Source: Streptomyces sp. CGMCC 4.7035 (lineage in GTDB: Bacteria; Actinomycetota; Actinomycetes; Streptomycetales; Streptomycetaceae). Taken from it: DNA of 64,000 bases. The notes below the pieces were generated by a model that was not told where the DNA came from, made no database searches, and saw nothing but the letters and a program-made list of their open reading frames with translations. Of the stretch, positions 53,209-62,818 are shown piece after piece. Numbering within the stretch: position 1 is the first letter of the stretch; the number at the start of each line of letters is the position of its first letter. The stretch is taken from assembly GCF_031583065.1 (NCBI RefSeq), contig NZ_CP134053.1:2666001-2730000 (forward strand), given 5' to 3'. The position numbers and the translations under genes were made by a program.

Positions 53209-55992
53209 TCAGCTCGGGGCGCCGACACCCGACAGGGTGCCTTCCAGCACGTCGCGGAGCTGCGATCGGGCGGTGATGCCCAGCTTGGGGAACACCCGAT
53301 AGAGGTGGGAGCCGACCGTACGCGGGGAGAGGAACAGTTTCTCGCCGATCTCACGGTTTGTCAGGCCACGGGCCGCGAGCTGGACGATCTGCTGCTGTTG
53401 CGGGCTGAGTTCGGCGAACGCACTGGGCACGGCACCGCTCGCTTCGATGCCGGCGGCTCGCAGCTCCGCCTTCGCCCGTTCGATCCAGGGCCGCGCGCCG
53501 AGTCGCTGGAAGGTGTCGAGTGCCGCGTTCAGCAGCGGGCGGGCCTCGGCGATGCGGCGCTGCCTGCGCAGCCACTCGCCGTAGTCCAGCCGGGTCTGCG
53601 CCCGTTCGAACGGCCATTGCTCGCCCGTGGTGTCCGCCAGCGCCGCCCGGAAGTACGGTTCGGCGTGCTCCGGTTCCGCGAGCAGCGCGCGGCCCCGGCC
53701 GACCAGTGCGGTGACCCGGGCCGACATGCCGCTGCCCAGGCGCCGCCCCGCACGCTCCAGCAGTTCGGCGGCGTGTTCCCGCTGGCCCCGGCGGACGGCC
53801 GCCGCGGCAAGTTCGGCCAGCACGGTGTACGAGACGTGGTAGTGCACCGGGTCGCCGTCGTCGGTGAAGGCCGAGCGGAACTGCGTGTACGCGGTGTCGT
53901 AGTCGCCCTCGGCCACTGCGGCCAGACCCAGGGCCCGGCGGGCGAAGACCGCGACCGACCGGCTTTCCAGCGGATCCACCAGGGCCAGTGCCTGCTCGGC
54001 ATTCCGGCGTGCGTCGCCCGTCTCGCCGAGCAGGGCGAGGACTGTCGCGTCGAGCGCACGCGCGCACGCCTCGGCGTGGTCCAGTCCGGCCTGCGAGGCC
54101 ACCACCGCGATCTCGGCGGCCACCGAGCGGGCCTCCGCCCACCGGCCCTGTTCCAGATAGGCCCAGCCGGCGGCACAGCCCAGTCCGGCCGGCAGCGGGC
54201 CATGGGCCTGCCAACGACCGAACGCCTCGTCGAAGGTCCTGGTGGCGAGGGTGGTCTGGTCGAGGAGCCAGGCCACAATGGCGAGCGCGGTCAGAGTCCT
54301 GGGGTCGTCCTTGGCCTCGGCGATGAGCCCTGGCAGCGCCGGGGCGAGGGACGCTCCCGCGCCGCCGGGGTCGGACACGGCCAGTACCCAGGCGCGCAGC
54401 GCACCCCCGGCAGGAGAGCCTGGCATACCGGAGAGCAGGGCCTCGATCCGCTGCCGTTGGGACTCCTCCCCCGAGTAGTAGCGGACCACCGCCGCCGCGG
54501 CGAGGGCGTCCAGCAGGCGGGGTGACCGGGCGCTCGCTGCCTCGTCGGCGATCCGCGCCAGCAGCGCGAAGGCCGCCGAGTGGTGTGGGCCCATGGTCAT
54601 GAGCTGTCCCGTGGCCAGTGCGGCCCTGCTGATCAACGCCGGGTCGTCACTGCGCTTGCGTACCTCGCCCGCCAGGTGTTCCACCCAGCCGAGCTGACCG
54701 GTGAAGACGGCCATGTCCGCGGCATCGGCCAGCAGCCGTGCCTGGTCCACGCGGCGCGGGCTGAGTTCTGCGGCGCGCTCCAGAGCGGCGGCTGCGGCCG
54801 CATGGCCGCCCCGGCGCCGGGCTCGGCCGGCCGTCTCCAGGAGGACCGCCGACACCTCCTCGTCAGGACGCACGGTCGCGGCGGCGAGATGCCAGGCGCG
54901 GCGGTCGGGTTCCTCACCCAGCAGCCGGGCGAGCGCGAGGTGTGCTTGCCTGCGTTCCTCGAAGGACGCGGCGTGGTAGACCGCCGAGCGGATGAGCGGG
55001 TGACGGAAGGAGATCCCGGCGCTGTCCTGTCGTACGAGACCGGCCTGTTCGGCGGGCAGCCACACCGTGTCCTCCGCCTCGGGCAGACCCCGCGAGGCCA
55101 CCGGCGCATCTGCCGCGTCAGCGGCCGCGAGCAGCAGCAGGGCGCGGCGGGTCGCTTCCGGAAGGAGCTCCACGTGCCGCGCGAAGATCCCTTCCAGCCG
55201 GTCGGTGACGGGCAGCGGTCCCTCCACTCCGCTGCCTGCGACCTGCCGGCTCGCGGTGGCGCGGGCGAGCTCGACCAGGGCCAGCGGATTGCCCGCCGCC
55301 TCCTGGAGGATGCGCACGCGGGTGCGGCCAGTGGGTCGGTCGGGCTGCTCATCGAGCAACCGGTTCGCCGCCTCACCGCTCAGCGGCCCGAGCTCCAGGC
55401 GCTCGTATCCCTTGTCGAACCCGGGCAGCGCGTCCGCGGCACGCACCCCCACCAGCAGCGTGACGGGCTCACTGTCCATGCGCCGGGCCACGAAGGAGAG
55501 AGCGTCCAGTGACGCACGGTCGATCCACTGGGCGTCATCGACCACCACGAGCAGCGGTGCCGGTTCCGCCAGATCCGACAGCAGGGTCAGCACCGCCAGA
55601 CCGACGAGCATGGCATCGGGCGTCTCTGCGTGTTCATCCAGCCCCAGCGCGGCCCGCAGCGAGGAGCGCTGCCGTGACGGCAGGCTGTCCAACTCGCCGA
55701 GCACCGGGCGGAGCATCTGGTGAAGGCCGGCGAACGCGAGGTGCGACTCGGACTCACTGCCGACCGCGCGCAGCACCCGATGGCCCGCACTCCGCGTACG
55801 TTCCACCGCGAGGTCGAGCAGTATGCTCTTGCCGGCACCGGGGTCGCCCGTGAGGACAAGTACCTCGCTGTGGGACCGGTCAGCGGCGATACGCCGCATG
55901 ATTTCCGCAGTCTCGGTTTCCCGGCCCACCACCGGCAGTCCGAGATCGTGATTCGGGCGCCAGTTCCCTTGAGCGCGTCCACCATTTTTCAC
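53209..55992 (-). CDS. Large ATP-binding LuxR-family (LAL/MalT-type) regulator
   Basis: A 927-residue regulator: AAA/NACHT-like ATPase at the N-terminus (VVGRETETAEI; Walker A GDPGAGKS at 49-56; Walker B LLVVVDDAQWID), winged-helix and TPR-like middle (repeated ALERAAEL, AYLEQGRWAEA, ALGLAAVAEGDYDTAYTQF), and a C-terminal LuxR HTH (LSPQQQQIVQLAARGLTNREIGEKLFLSPRTVGSHLYRVF in parts). LAL proteins are ligand- and ATP-dependent activators, often of catabolic or antibiotic genes. GTG 55992 has GGAGC seven bases upstream. It is divergent from a gene set that shares a 20-bp motif, the nearest copy lying 115 bases away, and is the obvious candidate activator. Confidence 0.92.
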   Translation of the reverse strand: MKNGGRAQGNWRPNHDLGLPVVGRETETAEIMRRIAADRSHSEVLVLTGDPGAGKSILLDLAVERTRSAGHRVLRAVGSESESHLAFAGLHQMLRPVLGELDSLPSRQRSSLRAALGLDEHAETPDAMLVGLAVLTLLSDLAEPAPLLVVVDDAQWIDRASLDALSFVARRMDSEPVTLLVGVRAADALPGFDKGYERLELGPLSGEAANRLLDEQPDRPTGRTRVRILQEAAGNPLALVELARATASRQVAGSGVEGPLPVTDRLEGIFARHVELLPEATRRALLLLAAADAADAPVASRGLPEAEDTVWLPAEQAGLVRQDSAGISFRHPLIRSAVYHAASFEERRQAHLALARLLGEEPDRRAWHLAAATVRPDEEVSAVLLETAGRARRRGGHAAAAAALERAAELSPRRVDQARLLADAADMAVFTGQLGWVEHLAGEVRKRSDDPALISRAALATGQLMTMGPHHSAAFALLARIADEAASARSPRLLDALAAAAVVRYYSGEESQRQRIEALLSGMPGSPAGGALRAWVLAVSDPGGAGASLAPALPGLIAEAKDDPRTLTALAIVAWLLDQTTLATRTFDEAFGRWQAHGPLPAGLGCAAGWAYLEQGRWAEARSVAAEIAVVASQAGLDHAEACARALDATVLALLGETGDARRNAEQALALVDPLESRSVAVFARRALGLAAVAEGDYDTAYTQFRSAFTDDGDPVHYHVSYTVLAELAAAAVRRGQREHAAELLERAGRRLGSGMSARVTALVGRGRALLAEPEHAEPYFRAALADTTGEQWPFERAQTRLDYGEWLRRQRRIAEARPLLNAALDTFQRLGARPWIERAKAELRAAGIEASGAVPSAFAELSPQQQQIVQLAARGLTNREIGEKLFLSPRTVGSHLYRVFPKLGITARSQLRDVLEGTLSGVGAPS

Positions 55993-56106
55993 GGATGCTC
56001 CAGGAATTGAGATTCCTCAGATAATAGCGTGCGCTTACCTCTGCCCCGCCCCACGGGGGCGTGTGCGATCGGTCCTGCGCTGTGTTTTCGGACCCAGGCG
56101 CACGGT

Positions 56107-56127
56107 GCAGTCACGTGACGCATACCG
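56107..56127 (+). promoter_or_regulatory. TCACGTGA-type regulon motif, copy 1
   Basis: GCAG followed by TCACGTGACGCATACCG. Lies between the LAL gene and the small gene at 56193, 65 bases before its start. Confidence 0.7.
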
Positions 56128-56192
56128 GTGCCGCGCGGCCGCGGCCAGAATCGAGAGGCGAGGCCGGAAATCTTCTTGGGAAGGGGCTTCCC

Positions 56193-56525
56193 ATGGTCAC
56201 CGAAGGGTCATGGCTGGTAGGGCTCGCGTTCCACACTTCGTGCGGTCGGCTCGTACAGCACTTCTATGTCATCGATGGCACAGCCGATCCCGCCCACGCC
56301 CGGCAGGCGGCTCTCGCGAGGAGCACGGCCCCGGGTGAACGAGCCGCCCAAGGAAACCTCCGGCCCGCCGACGGATGCGTCGAGATACGCCGGGTGATGC
56401 ACGACCCGCTGGGCAACCGGCGGCTCTCCGCCCCCAGTCCGTGCTCTGCCCCCGGCCGGCCGGACCTGCCGCCTTACCCGCACACTTCGGTCCTCAGCTG
56501 CCCGCCCTGCAGAGGGGTCTCGTAG
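56193..56525 (+). CDS. Small unknown protein, first gene of the motif-linked set
   Basis: A 110-residue frame starting ATG 56193 behind GGGAAGGGG (seven bases). The first 70 residues (TEGSWLVGLAFHTSCGRLVQ, HFYVIDGTADPAHARQAAL, then GCVEIRRVMHDPLG) look protein-like. The last 40 are Pro/Ser-rich and may be out-of-frame decay, so the gene could be truncated. No family recognised. It lies downstream of motif copy 1 and divergent from the LAL gene, which suggests coregulation. 56526-56703 shows nothing. Confidence 0.45.
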   Translation: MVTEGSWLVGLAFHTSCGRLVQHFYVIDGTADPAHARQAALARSTAPGERAAQGNLRPADGCVEIRRVMHDPLGNRRLSAPSPCSAPGRPDLPPYPHTSVLSCPPCRGVS

Positions 56526-56703
56526 GCACGACGGCTGCTGAGCAGACCGCGCAGTCCCCTTGCGCAATGTACCGGCCGTACTCGATGCCCCAGTGGCCAA
56601 GTGACCTCGACGGCCGGTCGTCTCACCGCCGAGCTGACGGGCACGAGGAAGGCGCCGTCGGCGGACCGGCAGGGGCGCGGGGTGGCGGGCGATCACCCGG
56701 CCG

Positions 56704-56955
56704 TCAAGTCCAGCATGCCGCCGTGTCCGTCTCCGTGCGGCCCAGCGACGTCTGCATGACGGTGGCCACCGTCCGGTTCAGCGTGCTCTTGCCCGCCCCG
56801 TTGGGGCCCAGCAGCCCGTGTATGCCGGTACCCAGCGCCAGTTCGAGCTCGTCGACGGCCATCCGTTTCCTGTCGGCCCTCACCTTCAGCCAGGCGGCCC
56901 GGATCTCCCGGACGTAGGGCATCGGTGCGATCTCGGCCGCGCTCAACGCGGGCAT
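56704..56955 (-). pseudogene. Truncated ABC-transporter ATPase remnant
   Basis: The frame from ATG 56955 encodes the start of an ABC ATPase (VDELELALGTGIHGLLGPNG then AGKSTLNRTVATVMQTSLGR), with an intact Walker A at about 56811-56834, but it stops about 20 residues later. Signature and Walker B are missing. Upstream on the same strand (about 56980-57340) are scraps resembling a permease: MWTIAARRLVDAFRRRAHH in one frame and LGTGVVIARRYAYSVLGAHR ending at a stop in another. An ABC export operon appears to have decayed here. Confidence 0.6.
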
Positions 56956-57406
56956 ACTCCGATGTTCCGTTCCGATGGTCAACGATGGGCTCCCAGCACG
57001 GAGTACGCGTACCTGCGAGCGATCACGACACCTGTGCCGAGCACGAAGACAAGCCCCCACACGGGCAGGTCCTCCGCCCGCAGGGCCAAGGGGGGCGTCC
57101 TCCGCATCTCGATCCTGGCCCGTCGAGCACCATGGCCTGCTGTACGTCTCTCAGTTCCAGTTCCGGCGCCAGCAGTCGCAGCGCGTCACCGGGTCATCGG
57201 GTCACCGGTGACGGCAGCCGCAAGCAACGCCTCCTCGGCTGCGGACGGCGCGGCGGCCCGCGGTCGCGTGGTGCGCCCGGCGCCGGAACGCGTCCACGAG
57301 CCGGCGCGCAGCGATCGTCCACATGCCTCCGAAATATTCCCCGACGATCAAGTGGCCGTGTCGGTAAGCAGGCGGCTTCTGTGCGACTTCAACGGCGTTT
57401 CCCTCT

Positions 57407-57426
57407 CAGTCACGTGACTGATACCG
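57407..57426 (+). promoter_or_regulatory. TCACGTGA-type regulon motif, copy 2
   Basis: CAGTCACGTGACTGATACCG; differs from copy 1 at two positions. About 150 bases upstream of the Tat-exported MBL gene. A GCACCATGG stretch follows 18 bases later, as it does after copy 4. Confidence 0.7.
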
Positions 57427-57559
57427 GCCGCCGCTTTCATTACGCACCATGGTGATATCCGGCCGCGGTGATCCAGAAGCGGCCTATCACGGTCCTGGCC
57501 TCCCTGGCTCGCAGGTGTTGCAGGACGTGATGAGTTATTCCATCGGAGTGCGAAGAAAA

Positions 57560-58609
57560 ATGGACAGCGAAAATTCTGCACGATCCCTGACCCGGCGCGG
57601 CTTCGTCGGAGTCACCGCGGGCATCGGCGCCGCTGGGCTGTGGGGCAGCCAGATGGTCCAGCCGGCCAACGCCTCCGCCTTGACGAGGGCCGAGCGCCGG
57701 ACACGCGTCGAGACCATCCAGTTGGGCAAGGTCACCGTCACCCGTGTCGTGGAGTTCAGCGGTCCGGTGGGCCTGACGTCACGCCAGTTCTTCCCGGAGA
57801 GTCCGAAGGAACTGTGGGAGGAGAACAGGGACTGGCTCAGCCCGGACTTCTGGAAGCCGAGCACCGACATGGTCAACTCCGCCCTGCAGACCTGGGTCCT
57901 GCGCAGTGAGGGCAGAACGATCCTGATCGACACGGGCGCCGGCAACGACAAGTTCCGTCCGTACGCAAAGCAGTGGCAGTACATGGATACTGATTTCCTG
58001 CGCCGTCTGGCCCGTGCCGGAGTCCGTCCACAGGACGTCGATGTCGTCGTCAACACCCACCTGCACAACGACCATGTCGGCTGGAACACCCGACGTGAGG
58101 GCCGGGACTGGGTACCCACCTTCCCCAACGCCACCTATCTGATCCCCAAGATCGAGTTCGACTTCTGGAACCCGCAGGGCCCCGTACGTCCGAAGTACTG
58201 GCAGGGCAACCAGAACGTATGGGAGGACAGCGTGCTCCCGGTCCACGAGGCGGGCCTGGTGAAGCTGTGGGAGGGCTCGTACACCCTCGACTCCAGCCTG
58301 GAGTTGCGCCTCGCAGCCGGGCACACTCCCGGCTCGTCCGTCATCCGGCTGGAGTCAGGGCGTGACCGAGCGGTGTTCATCGGCGACCTGCTTCACACCC
58401 CGCTGCAACTCGAACACCCCGAGTTCAACAGCTGCTTCGAGGAGGACGAGAAGATGGCGCTCGCCACCCGGCGCCGCGAATTGGAGTGGGCAGCGGACCA
58501 CAGGGCCCTCGTCCTGCCCGCGCATCTGCCCGGCCACGGCGCCGCCGAGGTGGAGCGCGACGGCAGCAACTTCAAGATCAAGGACTGGGCCGGATTCAGC
58601 CGCAGCTGA
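57560..58609 (+). CDS. Tat-exported MBL-fold metallohydrolase
   Basis: A 349-residue metallo-beta-lactamase-fold hydrolase with a twin-arginine signal (SLTRRGFVGVTAGIGAAG; R12 and R13) and cleavage near NASA. Zinc ligands: H167-x-H169-x-D171-H172 (NTHLHNDHVGWN), a further His in AAGHTPGSSV, Asp in FIGDLLHTPL and His in PAHLPGHGAAE. The fold and motif resemble lactonases such as the AHL-lactonase group, so an ester or lactone substrate outside the membrane is plausible. Start: ATG 57560 gives a normal Tat signal; ATG 57530 (AGGA four bases upstream) adds ten residues. It is a close paralogue of the cytosolic enzyme at 61904. Confidence 0.87.
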   Translation: MDSENSARSLTRRGFVGVTAGIGAAGLWGSQMVQPANASALTRAERRTRVETIQLGKVTVTRVVEFSGPVGLTSRQFFPESPKELWEENRDWLSPDFWKPSTDMVNSALQTWVLRSEGRTILIDTGAGNDKFRPYAKQWQYMDTDFLRRLARAGVRPQDVDVVVNTHLHNDHVGWNTRREGRDWVPTFPNATYLIPKIEFDFWNPQGPVRPKYWQGNQNVWEDSVLPVHEAGLVKLWEGSYTLDSSLELRLAAGHTPGSSVIRLESGRDRAVFIGDLLHTPLQLEHPEFNSCFEEDEKMALATRRRELEWAADHRALVLPAHLPGHGAAEVERDGSNFKIKDWAGFSRS

Positions 58610-58725
58610 CCCGGCCGCACCTCCGGTAGCTGTGGACGATCTCCGGAAAGTCCGGTCCCGGCAGAGTCGTTGTCACAGAACGCCACTACGTGCCACGGGC
58701 TGACCGGCCGCGCGCACTGCGAGAG

Positions 58726-58745
58726 CAGTCATCTGACGCATACCG
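58726..58745 (+). promoter_or_regulatory. TCACGTGA-type regulon motif, copy 3 (degenerate core)
   Basis: CAGTCATCTGACGCATACCG: the core is TCATCTGA, while the right part CGCATACCG is identical to copies 1 and 4. Upstream of the FUSC gene. Confidence 0.65.
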
Positions 58746-58938
58746 GACGGAAGACCGGCTTGCCGAGACTGGTGACGAGGCGCTGGTCCTTACAGGGCCT
58801 CCGATGCTCTCTCTCACACTCACAACCCGGCTTGCCGCGGTCCGAAGGAGCTTACGCGGACACCTGGGTAAGTCATGGCCGCAGTCCGCCGACCGGCGAA
58901 CGCACCATGCGCGCGCGAATGGACGTATGGAGACCCTC

Positions 58939-61272
58939 ATGGTGGCAAGGAAGACGGCATGGCTGTGGGACCGTTTCGCCGCCGTCGACCCGGGGCTGAT
59001 GCGTCTGGCCTCCGCGATGCGCGCCGTGCTCGGCGCCGCCGCGTCCCTCGCTGTCCTGGCTGCCCTTCGGCAGTCCGACACGGACTTGCTGGTCGGCGGC
59101 TTCACCGCGATGGTGACCTCTCTGGCGATCAGTGACCTGCACCCACGCAACCAGCTGATCACGCTGGGACTCGGAGCTCCGCTCTCCCTCACGGCGCTGA
59201 CCGCCGGAGCCGTGCTCACGCCGTACCCAGTGGCGGCCAGGATCGTGTTCCTGCTGCTGATCTACGTCGCCGTCCACGTCCGCCGGTACGGCCCCAGGGG
59301 GCAGGGCCTGGGCATCTTCGGCTTCATGGCCTTCTTCCTGTCACAGTTCACCGGGGCACGAGCGGCCCAGCTGCCGCAGATGGGCGCAGCTGTCCTCGTC
59401 GCGTTCGGGGCCGTCGCGGCCGTCTGGTACGGTCCGGGATTCATGACGGGGGCCCGTGTCCTCGTCCGGCTGCGACGCACGTTCGACGGGCGGCTGCGCG
59501 ACGTCCTGCGGGACATGGCCACCCTGCTCAGCGCCGGGCAGGACGACGACACGGTGAGTCAGTCGCTGGAGAGGCGTCTGGACAGGCTCCACACGGCCGT
59601 GCTCCTGATCGAGGACTTTCTTGACGAGCACGTCGTCGACGAGGCCACCGACAGCTGCCTGTTGCGGCACCTCTCGCGAGTGGAGGTGGCCGCACAGCGG
59701 CTCGCTGTGCTCACGGTCCGCGCGGTCCACACGTCCCTGGCCGTCGACGATCTCGCGGGACGGACCGCACGGCAGCAGCTCGCTGGACGGATCCGTCTGC
59801 TGCATCACCAGGTCGCCCTGGGAACGGCCTTTGCCCCCGAGGCGCAGGCGGTAGCGCCCGAAGCCGAGCGGTCGATCCGGCCGGGCGAACGGACGCCGGT
59901 GCAGGACTGTTTCCAAGCGGTCGACGATCTGGCAATGGCCGTGAGCTCGTTGGGGCCGGGTCGTGTCAGCTCCCCGACACGACCCGGCCCCGCTCCGCAG
60001 GAGCCCACCGCACGGCGGGTTCGGGCATTTGACGTCAAGCGGTACTGGAAAGCGGACGACGCAGACCGCAAGCGCGGAACGACCCGGCAGGCCGTCCAGG
60101 TGACCGTCGCCTCCGCGCTCTCCGTGTTCGGCGGTCACCTGCTGTCTCCGGACCACTGGTACTGGGCCGTCGCGGCAACATGGGTCGTGTTCATCAACAC
60201 CGAGAGCACCGGCGAAGTCCTGCTGCAAAGCGTCCGGCGGCTGGCAGGCACGGTCCTGGGCGTGGTGTTCGGCTACGGCCTCGCGACCCTGGTCGGACCG
60301 GACGGGTCGCTGCTCCTGGCCCTGCTGCTGGTGTGCATGTTCGGGATGTTCTACACCCCGTCCGATGCCTACTGGGCGGTGACGTTCTTCATCACCGGCA
60401 TGCTGAGCATGCTGCTGGCGCTGCTGGACACGTTCTCGACGGACGTGCTCGTCCTGCGGGTGCAGGAGACCGCGCTGGGGGTCTCCTGCGGTGTTCTTGC
60501 CGCCGTACTCGTACTTCCCGTCACGGTCCGCCGGGCCAGTGACGAGGAGCTGGTCGACTTTCTGCTGGCCCTCAGGCGCCTGCTGCACGAGACGACGCGG
60601 ATCCCTGGCACCGGCACCAAGACGAGCCTGGTGCGCGCGACCCATGATCTCGATCAGGCGCTGGAGTCCTTCCGCAGAGCCTGCCTGCCGCTCACCCACC
60701 CGCTCAATCTCCAGCGGGGCCGTCGTGATCGGGCCCGCCACCTCTTGGAACTGCTGGAAGCCGGTGCCTACCACGCACGGAGCCTGGCCGCCGTGGCTGG
60801 GCGGCTCCCAGAGAGCGACGGGATCGAGTACGCGCCCCGGATCGCCGACGCGGCCGACCGTGTGCAGGAGACCGTGACGCACCTGATCCGCGTTACGCGG
60901 CACCGACGGGGAACGGCCCCCCGCACGGCACGCCCGAGGGTCACCAGGGCACTGTCCCTGCTCTCCGACGAGCAGCGCATGCGTCGCGGCCGGCCGTCGC
61001 CCGAGCAGCGCCTGCTGCTCCACATCGGCCGTCTCGACACGACCCTGACCGCACTCGTACGCGCCTGGGACCCGCCCGTGCCGGGCGTCGGACACACCGT
61101 GGTGTCGTCCGGGGGCGGTGATGTCTCCTCGCCGCCCAGTCAGGCCACGCCCGCCGCCGATCAGATCCCACCGGCCGACACGCACACACACCCGTCGGTC
61201 AGGCCCTGCCGGGCCGGTCGTGCGACAGGCGTCACCGAGCCCGCGACCAGCCCGGGGCGGGCTGCCTGCTGA
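58939..61272 (+). CDS. FUSC-family membrane protein (aromatic-acid-exporter/YccS-like)
   Basis: A 777-residue inner-membrane protein with two membrane bundles: residues about 20-170 (LASAMRAVLGAAASLAVLAAL, LFLLLIYVAVHVRRYG region) and about 390-560 (HWYWAVAATWVVFINTEST, LAGTVLGVVFGYGLATLV, LLVCMFGMFYTPSDAYWAVTFFITGML in parts). Each is followed by a soluble helical domain. The AATWVVF...RLAGTVLGV signature is that of FUSC proteins, which include fusaric-acid and aromatic-acid efflux pumps. Start ATG 58939 has GGAG six bases upstream; ATG 58927 and 58804 are in frame, and the latter would include a TTA codon at 58852. Motif copy 3 lies upstream. Inferred role: export of a toxic acid or related product. 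Confidence 0.87.
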   Translation: MVARKTAWLWDRFAAVDPGLMRLASAMRAVLGAAASLAVLAALRQSDTDLLVGGFTAMVTSLAISDLHPRNQLITLGLGAPLSLTALTAGAVLTPYPVAARIVFLLLIYVAVHVRRYGPRGQGLGIFGFMAFFLSQFTGARAAQLPQMGAAVLVAFGAVAAVWYGPGFMTGARVLVRLRRTFDGRLRDVLRDMATLLSAGQDDDTVSQSLERRLDRLHTAVLLIEDFLDEHVVDEATDSCLLRHLSRVEVAAQRLAVLTVRAVHTSLAVDDLAGRTARQQLAGRIRLLHHQVALGTAFAPEAQAVAPEAERSIRPGERTPVQDCFQAVDDLAMAVSSLGPGRVSSPTRPGPAPQEPTARRVRAFDVKRYWKADDADRKRGTTRQAVQVTVASALSVFGGHLLSPDHWYWAVAATWVVFINTESTGEVLLQSVRRLAGTVLGVVFGYGLATLVGPDGSLLLALLLVCMFGMFYTPSDAYWAVTFFITGMLSMLLALLDTFSTDVLVLRVQETALGVSCGVLAAVLVLPVTVRRASDEELVDFLLALRRLLHETTRIPGTGTKTSLVRATHDLDQALESFRRACLPLTHPLNLQRGRRDRARHLLELLEAGAYHARSLAAVAGRLPESDGIEYAPRIADAADRVQETVTHLIRVTRHRRGTAPRTARPRVTRALSLLSDEQRMRRGRPSPEQRLLLHIGRLDTTLTALVRAWDPPVPGVGHTVVSSGGGDVSSPPSQATPAADQIPPADTHTHPSVRPCRAGRATGVTEPATSPGRAAC

Positions 61273-61594
61273 GCGGGGCCGTATCGGCCGCCGTCGACGA
61301 ACCGCTGACCGTCTGTCTTCCCACCGTGGCGAACCGGCCGCAGCCGCCGGCGCACTTCCGCAACCACCGGGGCGGCGCCGGGGCCCTGCTGCTCGTGCGC
61401 TCCGGCACCGGGGAGGCTCCTGGTCGTCCGACAGAGCCGCAAGGGTCAGGATCCGCGCTTCCCTCGGACAGGAGCAACGCGGACAGCGGCCCCACGCCCT
61501 GGTCGGCACAGGGCCACCACCGCCTGGGCCGACGCGTGGCCTCACCGATCTCTCCGCGGTGTCAGGGCCAGTCCATGACCGTGGTGTCCAGGTG

Positions 61595-61614
61595 CAGTCA
61601 CGTGACGCATACCG
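61595..61614 (+). promoter_or_regulatory. TCACGTGA-type regulon motif, copy 4
   Basis: CAGTCACGTGACGCATACCG, identical to the core of copy 1. It lies 289 bases before the cytosolic MBL gene in the 61273-61903 gap. GCACCATGG at 61633 repeats the arrangement after copy 2. A frame from ATG 61638 to 61877 exists but has no support beyond its length. Confidence 0.7.
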
Positions 61615-61903
61615 CGGCACATCCCAGGCGGCGCACCATGGTTGAGCAGGGCCGTTCACGGAACGGACTCGAGCTGGGGGCGGCCCTGATTCCACCGGCG
61701 AAGACCCGAAGCCCGGCGCCCGCTCCGACCTCGGCGGCGGGACCGACGAGGTCGGCCGAAGATGCCGCAGCCCCGGTTGCGGCGCCCCCGGTGCTCCGGC
61801 CCACAGCGGCCAGGCACCCCAGTACCCGTCTTGAGCACCCGCTCATCCGCATCCGCCCGCGCCTGCGGCCTGAGTAGCGGAAATGATCGAAGTGGAGAGA
61901 ACC

Positions 61904-62818
61904 GTGGACACCATCACCCTGGGCGATGTCACCGTGACCCGAGTCTGGGAGTACTACGGTCCTGTTGACCTGACGCCCGAAGCGTTCGTCCCGGAGAGCC
62001 CTGCCGAGGCGTGGGAGACCCACCGTTCCTGGCTGGTGCCGGACTTCCTGGACGCCGAGACCAACATCGTGAGTTCCGCGATCCAGACCTGGGTACTGCG
62101 CAGTGAGGGCAAGACCATCCTGGTCGACACCGGTGTCGGCAACCACAAGGACCGTCCGTACGCGCCCGTGTGGAGCCGCCTGAACACCGACTTCCTGGGC
62201 AACCTCGCCCGTGCCGGGGTCCGTCCCGAGGACGTCGACATCGTGATCAACACGCACCTGCACGTCGACCACGTCGGCTGGAACACCTACCTCGACGGCC
62301 GCACCTGGGTGCCGACGTTCCCCAACGCCACTTACCTCATGGCCAAGGCGGACTTCGACTACTGGAACCCCGCCAACGAGATCAAGACCCTGCTCGGGCG
62401 CGGCAACCAGAACGTCTTCGAGGACAGCGTCGCCCCCGTGCACGAGGCCGGCCTGACCCAGCTCTGGGAGGGCAGCCACCGGATCGACGGCAACCTGCGC
62501 CTCGACCTCGCACCCGGCCACACCCCCGGCTCGTCGGTGCTGAGGCTGGAGTCCGGATCCGACCGGGCCCTGTTCGTCGGCGACCTGATGCACAGCCCGA
62601 TCCAGATCCACGAGCCCGACGCCAACAGCTGCTTCTGCGAGGACCCCGCTGAAGCCCGCGCCACCCGCCGCAAGCTCCTGGGCTCGGCGGCCGACAGCAA
62701 CGCCCTCGTCTTCCCCGCGCACCTCGGCGGCCACGGCGCCGCCGAAGTCGTCCGCGAGGGAGACAAGTTCGCCGTCAAGGGCTGGGCGCCCTTCTCCAAG
62801 TACACCGAGCAGGCCTGA
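61904..62818 (+). CDS. Cytosolic MBL-fold metallohydrolase, paralogue of the Tat-exported enzyme
   Basis: A 304-residue protein without a signal peptide, alignable along its whole length with the gene at 57560 (shared SSAIQTWVLRSEGKTILVDT-like, DWVPTFPNATYL-like, HEAGLTQLWEGS, APGHTPGSSVLRLESG). Zinc motif H118-x-H120-x-D122-H123, Asp in FVGDLMHSPI and His in PAHLGGHGAAE. The substrate is inferred to be the same class as its exported paralogue. GTG 61904 has GGAG six bases upstream and was preferred to ATG 61883. The carboxylesterase gene starts 22 bases after the stop, forming an operon. Confidence 0.87.
   Translation: MDTITLGDVTVTRVWEYYGPVDLTPEAFVPESPAEAWETHRSWLVPDFLDAETNIVSSAIQTWVLRSEGKTILVDTGVGNHKDRPYAPVWSRLNTDFLGNLARAGVRPEDVDIVINTHLHVDHVGWNTYLDGRTWVPTFPNATYLMAKADFDYWNPANEIKTLLGRGNQNVFEDSVAPVHEAGLTQLWEGSHRIDGNLRLDLAPGHTPGSSVLRLESGSDRALFVGDLMHSPIQIHEPDANSCFCEDPAEARATRRKLLGSAADSNALVFPAHLGGHGAAEVVREGDKFAVKGWAPFSKYTEQA

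Follow-up and report, generated by a model that had tools for sequence, protein, structure and literature searches.

Features of the locus

The window analysed here is a 64,000-nt stretch of the genome of Streptomyces sp. CGMCC 4.7035. It carries a LAL regulator gene and four copies of a 20-bp motif, CAGTCACGTGACGCATACCG, each ahead of one rightward unit (Table 1). The units encode a small conserved protein, a metallo-beta-lactamase (MBL)-fold hydrolase with a twin-arginine translocation (Tat)-like signal (MBL1), a FUSC-family transporter, and a second MBL-fold hydrolase (MBL2) followed by a type-B carboxylesterase. All copies of the motif lie on the plus strand, with 0, 2, 2 and 0 mismatches in a search at no more than 3 mismatches; the number expected in a shuffled window is 0.01. 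The whole genome (one contig, 8,088,797 bp) contains exactly these four at the same threshold, all in the window, and the reversed pattern gives 0 matches genome-wide. A 17-bp core, GTCANNTGACNSATACC, is found with 1 mismatch at four further places elsewhere in the genome, none of which is followed by a -10-like hexamer at a distance of 18 or 19 nt.

The original prediction of four copies, absent from the rest of the window and each preceding a rightward unit, agrees with these counts, and no unrelated copies at no more than 3 mismatches turn up in the genome beyond the four. Its positions are exact for the copies at 57407, 58726 and 61595; copy 1, placed there at 56107, starts at 56108. Two details of the motif are revised. 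The right part CGCATACCG, thought to be fixed, reads CTGATACCG in copy 2. The left part, described as the palindrome TCACGTGA, is variable at its central CG, reads TCATCTGA in copy 3, and differs in both central bases across sites. An E-box-like CACGTG palindrome is ruled out as the core of the motif, since those two central bases vary.

The LAL protein matches PF13191 (AAA_16) at residues 21-179 (67.8 bits, cut-off 32.6) and PF00196, the C-terminal LuxR/GerE helix-turn-helix (HTH), at residues 861-913 (50.4 bits, cut-off 23.5). LAL regulators control transcription, often in answer to a ligand, and are typically about 800-1000 residues long; the length of 927 aa is within this size class.

Table 1. 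Genes, putative operators and predicted promoter elements of the locus (positions are those of the window)
Feature	Position	Strand	Remarks
LAL regulator, 927 aa	53209..55992	-	AAA_16 ATPase and LuxR/GerE HTH; putative operator-binding protein; divergent from copy 1
Putative operator copy 1 (P1), CAGTCACGTGACGCATACCG	56108..56127	+	Precedes small-protein gene
Predicted -10 of P1, CAGAAT	56146..56151	+	18 nt past motif; predicted start ~56158
Small conserved protein	56193..56525	+	Open frame of 110 aa; no known family
Putative operator copy 2 (P2), CAGTCACGTGACTGATACCG	57407..57426	+	Precedes Tat-type MBL hydrolase (MBL1)
Predicted -10 of P2, CACCAT	57445..57450	+	18 nt past motif; predicted start ~57457
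MBL1, MBL-fold hydrolase, Tat-like signal	57560..58609	+	Start at 57560 (MDSENSARSLTRRGF) or 57515-57548, not 57449
Putative operator copy 3 (P3), CAGTCATCTGACGCATACCG	58726..58745	+	Precedes FUSC
Predicted -10 of P3, GAGACT	58765..58770	+	19 nt past motif; predicted start ~58777
FUSC-family transporter	58804..61272	+	First ATG after predicted P3 start; 58927 also possible
Putative operator copy 4 (P4), CAGTCACGTGACGCATACCG	61595..61614	+	Precedes MBL2-esterase
Predicted -10 of P4, CACCAT	61634..61639	+	19 nt past motif; predicted start ~61646
MBL2, MBL-fold hydrolase	61883..62818	+	ATG 61883, or GTG 61904 by comparison with relatives
Type-B carboxylesterase, 496 aa	62841..64000	+	Continues beyond the window to ~64329

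Conserved element and promoter geometry

The consensus is based on 72 non-redundant sites with flanks less than 70% identical, kept from 135 unique sites. The set leaves out ten non-actinomycete loci, the short ones (L001-L034, L073-L102) and the three Streptomyces loci L070-L072, which have two-mismatch sites but neither homologues of these genes nor a -10 (loci are designated L, genomes G). The conserved element is about GRTG-CAGTCA-NN-TGACNSATACC. It is an imperfect inverted repeat with the left arm GGTGCAGTCA and the right arm TGACGSATACC, the latter one base longer. The steadiest stretch is TGAC-n-(C/G)-ATACC in the right part, each named base of which is present in at least 95% of the 72 sites. 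The motif is nearly invariant; the flanks are not.

A -10-like hexamer of the form (T/C/G)ANNNT follows the 20-mer at 18 nt (27 sites) or 19 nt (41 sites), that is, at 68 of the 72 sites (68 of 75 with L070-L072 included), and at 17 or 20 nt at none of them. Of the four exceptions, two are overlapping or tandem readings in G223, one is a decayed copy in G051 and one stands ahead of a GntR gene. In the controls the pattern is seen at 3.0% of 21,000 random positions, at 1 of 10 exact matches outside actinomycetes and at none of the three gene-less sites of L070-L072. Among single-match loci (L005-L034, no more than 3 mismatches) it accompanies 1 of the 25 sites away from these genes and 5 of the 5 near them, which rules out a general Streptomyces element. 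The -10 sequences are diverse (21 different hexamers). No -35 hexamer is recognised: the best match to TTGACA is 2/6 in 67 of the 68 promoters and 3/6 in the remaining one.

With the predicted -10 placed at -12 to -7, the centre of the near-palindrome falls at -43.5 or -44.5 in all four promoters of the window. An ATG stands 6 nt past the -10 in the relatives L060, L062 and L063, as in leaderless messages, which fits the numbering used. Class II activator sites overlap the -35 region and centre near -40 to -45; on the predicted starts the present sites do so, and a recognisable -10 is combined with a poor -35. The phased -10 together with the missing -35 hexamer makes a class II activator operator the most likely identity of the motif.

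Distribution of the motif

Matches at no more than 3 mismatches are present in 99 of 295 Streptomyces genomes. Of 36 stretches picked from strong and clustered matches among them, 32 carry a homologue of these genes, 24 a LAL (50-84% identity) and 23 both a LAL and MBL2; none of the genes is found in the other four (L067, L070-L072). The site usually lies between the LAL gene and a divergent MBL2-esterase pair, or before FUSC or the small protein. Exact matches to CAGTCANNTGACGSATACCG in the species-genome collection amount to 92 stretches, of which 80 loci are listed. Within the DNA examined, a LAL, MBL, esterase or FUSC homologue is present in all 70 actinomycete loci listed and in none of the 10 listed from other bacteria. 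The loci belong to 12 named genera: Streptomyces, Kitasatospora, Embleya, Nonomuraea, Actinomadura, Microbispora, Actinoallomurus, Nocardiopsis, Streptomonospora, Actinorugispora, Glycomyces and Arthrobacter. Among 396 genomes from the phylum, six match at no more than 1 mismatch; the genes and the -10 are present in two of them, the present genome (G000) and G620, and both are missing from the 3 kb examined in the remaining four.

Association of the site with the LAL gene

Homologues of MBL2 are detected in 112 of the 295 genomes, the best seven candidates per genome being scored, so that some homologues may have been missed. Of the 82 MBL places at 57% identity or more, 79 were checked over 450 nt upstream for a site at no more than 3 mismatches; the three left out are G278:C150 (partial), G040:C1:849063 (short) and G166:C1:8966352 (score equal to that of G166:C1:157116). 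An adjacent LAL is one within 2.5 kb. The site is present at all 27 MBL homologues that have a LAL adjacent; of the 52 with no adjacent LAL, 42 are without it and 10 have it (Fisher p 3e-13). In three of these ten the LAL lies further off in the cluster (this genome, G223, G291), in six it is elsewhere in the genome (G125, G118, G096, G055, G150, G165), and in the last (G213, locus L069) a LAL of 55% identity is interrupted by the contig end. Counted per genome, the site is present at 36 of 41 MBL genes where a LAL is found in the loci examined and at 1 of 38 (that of G213) elsewhere (p 8e-16). Closely related MBL homologues (at least 70% identity) with no LAL in the loci examined number 16, and 15 of them are without the site (best 7-9 mismatches), G213 being the sixteenth. 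In 18 genomes with a site-less MBL homologue, a search with the C-terminal third of LAL gives no match above 59%; the three best matches are 46-48% identical at full length and have other recognition helices. The FUSC gene keeps the site in G118, G136 and G245 though the LAL is ~3-4 Mb away, as does a second MBL-esterase pair of G118 at the same distance. As judged from these comparisons, the motif accompanies the LAL gene rather than the enzyme genes. Conservation of the genes without the motif, which would speak against the original prediction, does occur, yet in loci without LAL.

The recognition helix follows the same division. Among the LALs of site-bearing loci the HTH core FLSPRTVxSHLYRxFPKLG is near-constant down to 48% overall identity, with the single-change exceptions SQRTV (L208), RTISS (L178), YLSPRTV (L130, L131), FVSPRTV (L219) and FPRLG (L184). 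The LALs of G109, G212, G133 and G175 and a paralogue in the present genome differ inside the recognition helix; those of G109, G212 and G175 have VGFHLYR, VGYHLHK and VGHHLYK instead. The proposal that the adjacent LAL protein binds the motif is supported by this comparative evidence, and binding appears probable.

Some related loci have unusual sites. Two tandem sites 33 bp apart precede MBL1 in Streptomyces griseoaurantiacus JCM 4763 (L172, 2019-2071), and L037 is alike. In L143 (4424) and L160 (4456), MBL genes without a nearby LAL are preceded by weak forms of the site that have a CAGGCT -10 in the normal position and perhaps reflect a diverged regulator.

Predicted target genes

The small protein matches no Pfam or NCBIfam family. 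It has eight database relatives of 84-99 aa and is conserved in several regulon loci; most of the relatives stop near residue 86, and the frame read here continues for another 24 residues. The paralogues MBL1 and MBL2 share 64% identity, score 84.2 and 121.7 bits with PF00753, and show the HxHxDH metal motif in their translations as THLHNDH and THLHVDH. The RR motif of the Tat-like signal of MBL1 is seen in the sequence. The start codons given by the open reading frame finder for MBL1 and FUSC fall upstream of the predicted transcription starts and are therefore shifted downstream. Positions 61646-61880 form a leader of ~240 nt before MBL2, beginning GCAGGGCCG...CGGCCCTG; it could form a hairpin, a feature that, judged by eye, is partly kept in nine sequences (this one and eight relatives).

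The solved proteins closest to MBL2 by sequence are 4le6 (82 bits), an organophosphorus hydrolase, and 5hif/6c2c (80 bits); they include a reconstructed lactonase/dihydrocoumarin hydrolase ancestor (~80 bits). MBL2 is below the NCBIfam equivalog cut-offs of AidB (95/360 bits), YtnP (67/425 bits) and AiiA (33/375 bits). No lactonase equivalog cut-off is reached, so that its substrate is not assignable by family models. Relatives of FUSC export aromatic acids, in keeping with a route in which a lactone or ester is hydrolysed and the acid then exported. By content, the cluster resembles a module for lactone/ester hydrolysis and acid efflux.

Interpretation and alternatives

The sites, the promoter geometry, the co-inheritance with the LAL gene and the near-constant recognition helix, all of them read from the sequences, point to an operator of the adjacent LAL, which most likely acts as a class II activator; the probability of this reading is put at about 85%. 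In the mechanism proposed, the C-terminal LuxR-type HTH of LAL would bind the near-palindrome GGTGCAGTCA-NN-TGACNSATACC, probably as a dimer, and would activate rather than repress. The site would have its centre 43-45 bp before the transcription start, the right arm (ATACCG) would replace the -35 element, and bound LAL would recruit RNA polymerase to the -10 hexamer 18 or 19 nt downstream. The direction of the motif would be explained by the right arm standing in for the -35. The predicted regulon comprises four promoters within 5.5 kb, those of the small protein, MBL1, FUSC and the MBL2-carboxylesterase operon. A small molecule, sensed by the ATPase part of LAL, would serve as inducer. The gene content suggests a lactone or ester, which the enzymes would open and FUSC would export as the acid. 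A broader proposal, that an actinomycete LAL regulon uses one ATPase receptor to sense a lactone or aromatic ester and to switch on a hydrolase-esterase-efflux module for detoxification or signal quenching via one long phased operator, is offered tentatively, with somewhat less than even confidence.

Several observations weigh against the operator reading. In G133 the LAL found 2.2 kb away from a one-mismatch site (relaxed consensus) is 47% identical and has another recognition helix; this site has no -10 at 18 or 19 nt. One G136 site (L043, 11783-12529) precedes a RidA-like gene, named by eye, and not an MBL2-esterase pair; the gene is a possible further target of the regulon. The two-mismatch site before the GntR gene is without a -10. 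Two sites (L042, 14631; L208, 2666) are past the 3' end of the LAL gene with no clear target, and that of L222 (4892) points towards the LAL gene, which may indicate autoregulation; all three have a phased CAGATT -10. Five MBL paralogues (57-66% identity) are without the site in genomes that hold a site-type LAL; the regulon thus does not cover every paralogue. A LAL remnant of 47 residues stands beside the remote FUSC site of G245, a locus that may once have been complete. The absence of LAL from whole genomes was checked in the 18 genomes only, with the C-terminal third, and the -10 pattern was set after viewing the alignment, the controls using the same pattern.

The same sites could serve repression, a LAL dimer over the -35 blocking polymerase for as long as no ligand releases the dimer. 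Reports on LAL proteins mostly describe activators, and repression is considered unlikely here. The overlap with the -35 region is a position that repressors also use, and the LAL SCO6993 is reported to repress (PMC9628970), but the promoters offer no usable -35 hexamer, and a spacing to the -10 fixed within one base pair is unneeded for blocking. Alternatively, the motif and the -10 could together form the promoter of an alternative sigma factor of the extracytoplasmic function type, with ATACC as the -35 and the link to LAL secondary. Such a promoter would yield the fixed spacing; the wide variation of the -10 sequences, the length of a 20-bp motif with two TGAC half-sites, long for a -35, and the tracking of the LAL gene by the site make it very improbable.

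Equally little weight is given to a regulator encoded elsewhere that would bind the sites, LAL being merely linked. The LAL is indeed non-adjacent at 10 of the 37 site-bearing MBL genes, but in those ten it lies further off in the cluster or elsewhere in the genome, or is cut by a contig end. The lack of the site at all but the contig-end case among the close MBL homologues scored without LAL, and a recognition helix near-constant in the site-bearing group and different in other LALs, also argue for LAL itself. The copies would hardly be functionless remnants of a local duplication or mobile repeat. MBL1 and MBL2 are paralogues and part of the cluster may have duplicated, but a near-invariant motif between diverged flanks, a phased -10 at unrelated genes and sites at these genes in 12 named genera are opposed to this. 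Chance or a local repeat as the origin of the copies is ruled out by the counts, the controls and the divergence of the flanks.

The regulator, operator, promoter geometry and targets are readable together in loci of the 12 genera, and four promoters with one protein make binding, activation and inducer testable. The site model helps to locate further targets, such as the RidA-like gene of another genome. A possible role of the enzymes is to break down lactone signals or toxins. If the broader proposal on the regulon is true, this would be a LAL family whose binding code predicts its targets genome-wide.

Comparison with known systems

No description of this operator or gene set is found in the titles and abstract openings of the papers listed by searches of part of the open-access literature, subscription papers being outside their scope, nor, at that level, a binding code predicting targets genome-wide for any LAL. 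The sps palindrome of pIJ101, a candidate from the text search, belongs to a plasmid stability protein according to its description and is set aside. The nearest solved kin of MBL2 by sequence are MBL-fold methyl parathion/organophosphorus hydrolases and dihydrocoumarin/N-acyl homoserine lactone (AHL) lactonases, whose family models it misses by far.

MalT of Escherichia coli is a large activator that binds ATP and has a LuxR-type HTH at its C-terminus. It uses repeated short asymmetric boxes and maltotriose, whereas the present system has one near-palindrome per promoter; LAL scores 19.3 bits with the MalT family model (cut-off 537). Actinomycete promoters are also controlled by SARP-LAL regulators, PimR among them, whose C-terminal half is LAL-like (PMC3367932). 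They are described as binding heptameric direct repeats (PMC5930380; PMC11784345), unlike the near-palindrome found here.

LAL regulators are called poorly studied, several being from antibiotic clusters, and pleiotropic roles are described for SCO0877 and SCO7173 (PMC3282765); compared with these two, as so described, the present LAL looks local. Known LAL regulators share with it the architecture of an N-terminal AAA ATPase and a C-terminal LuxR-type HTH. SCO6993 protects palindromic DNA in footprints, two of which are without homology, and in the passage cited its authors state that no consensus site is predictable (PMC9628970). In contrast, the site described here is long, nearly invariant and phased to the -10.

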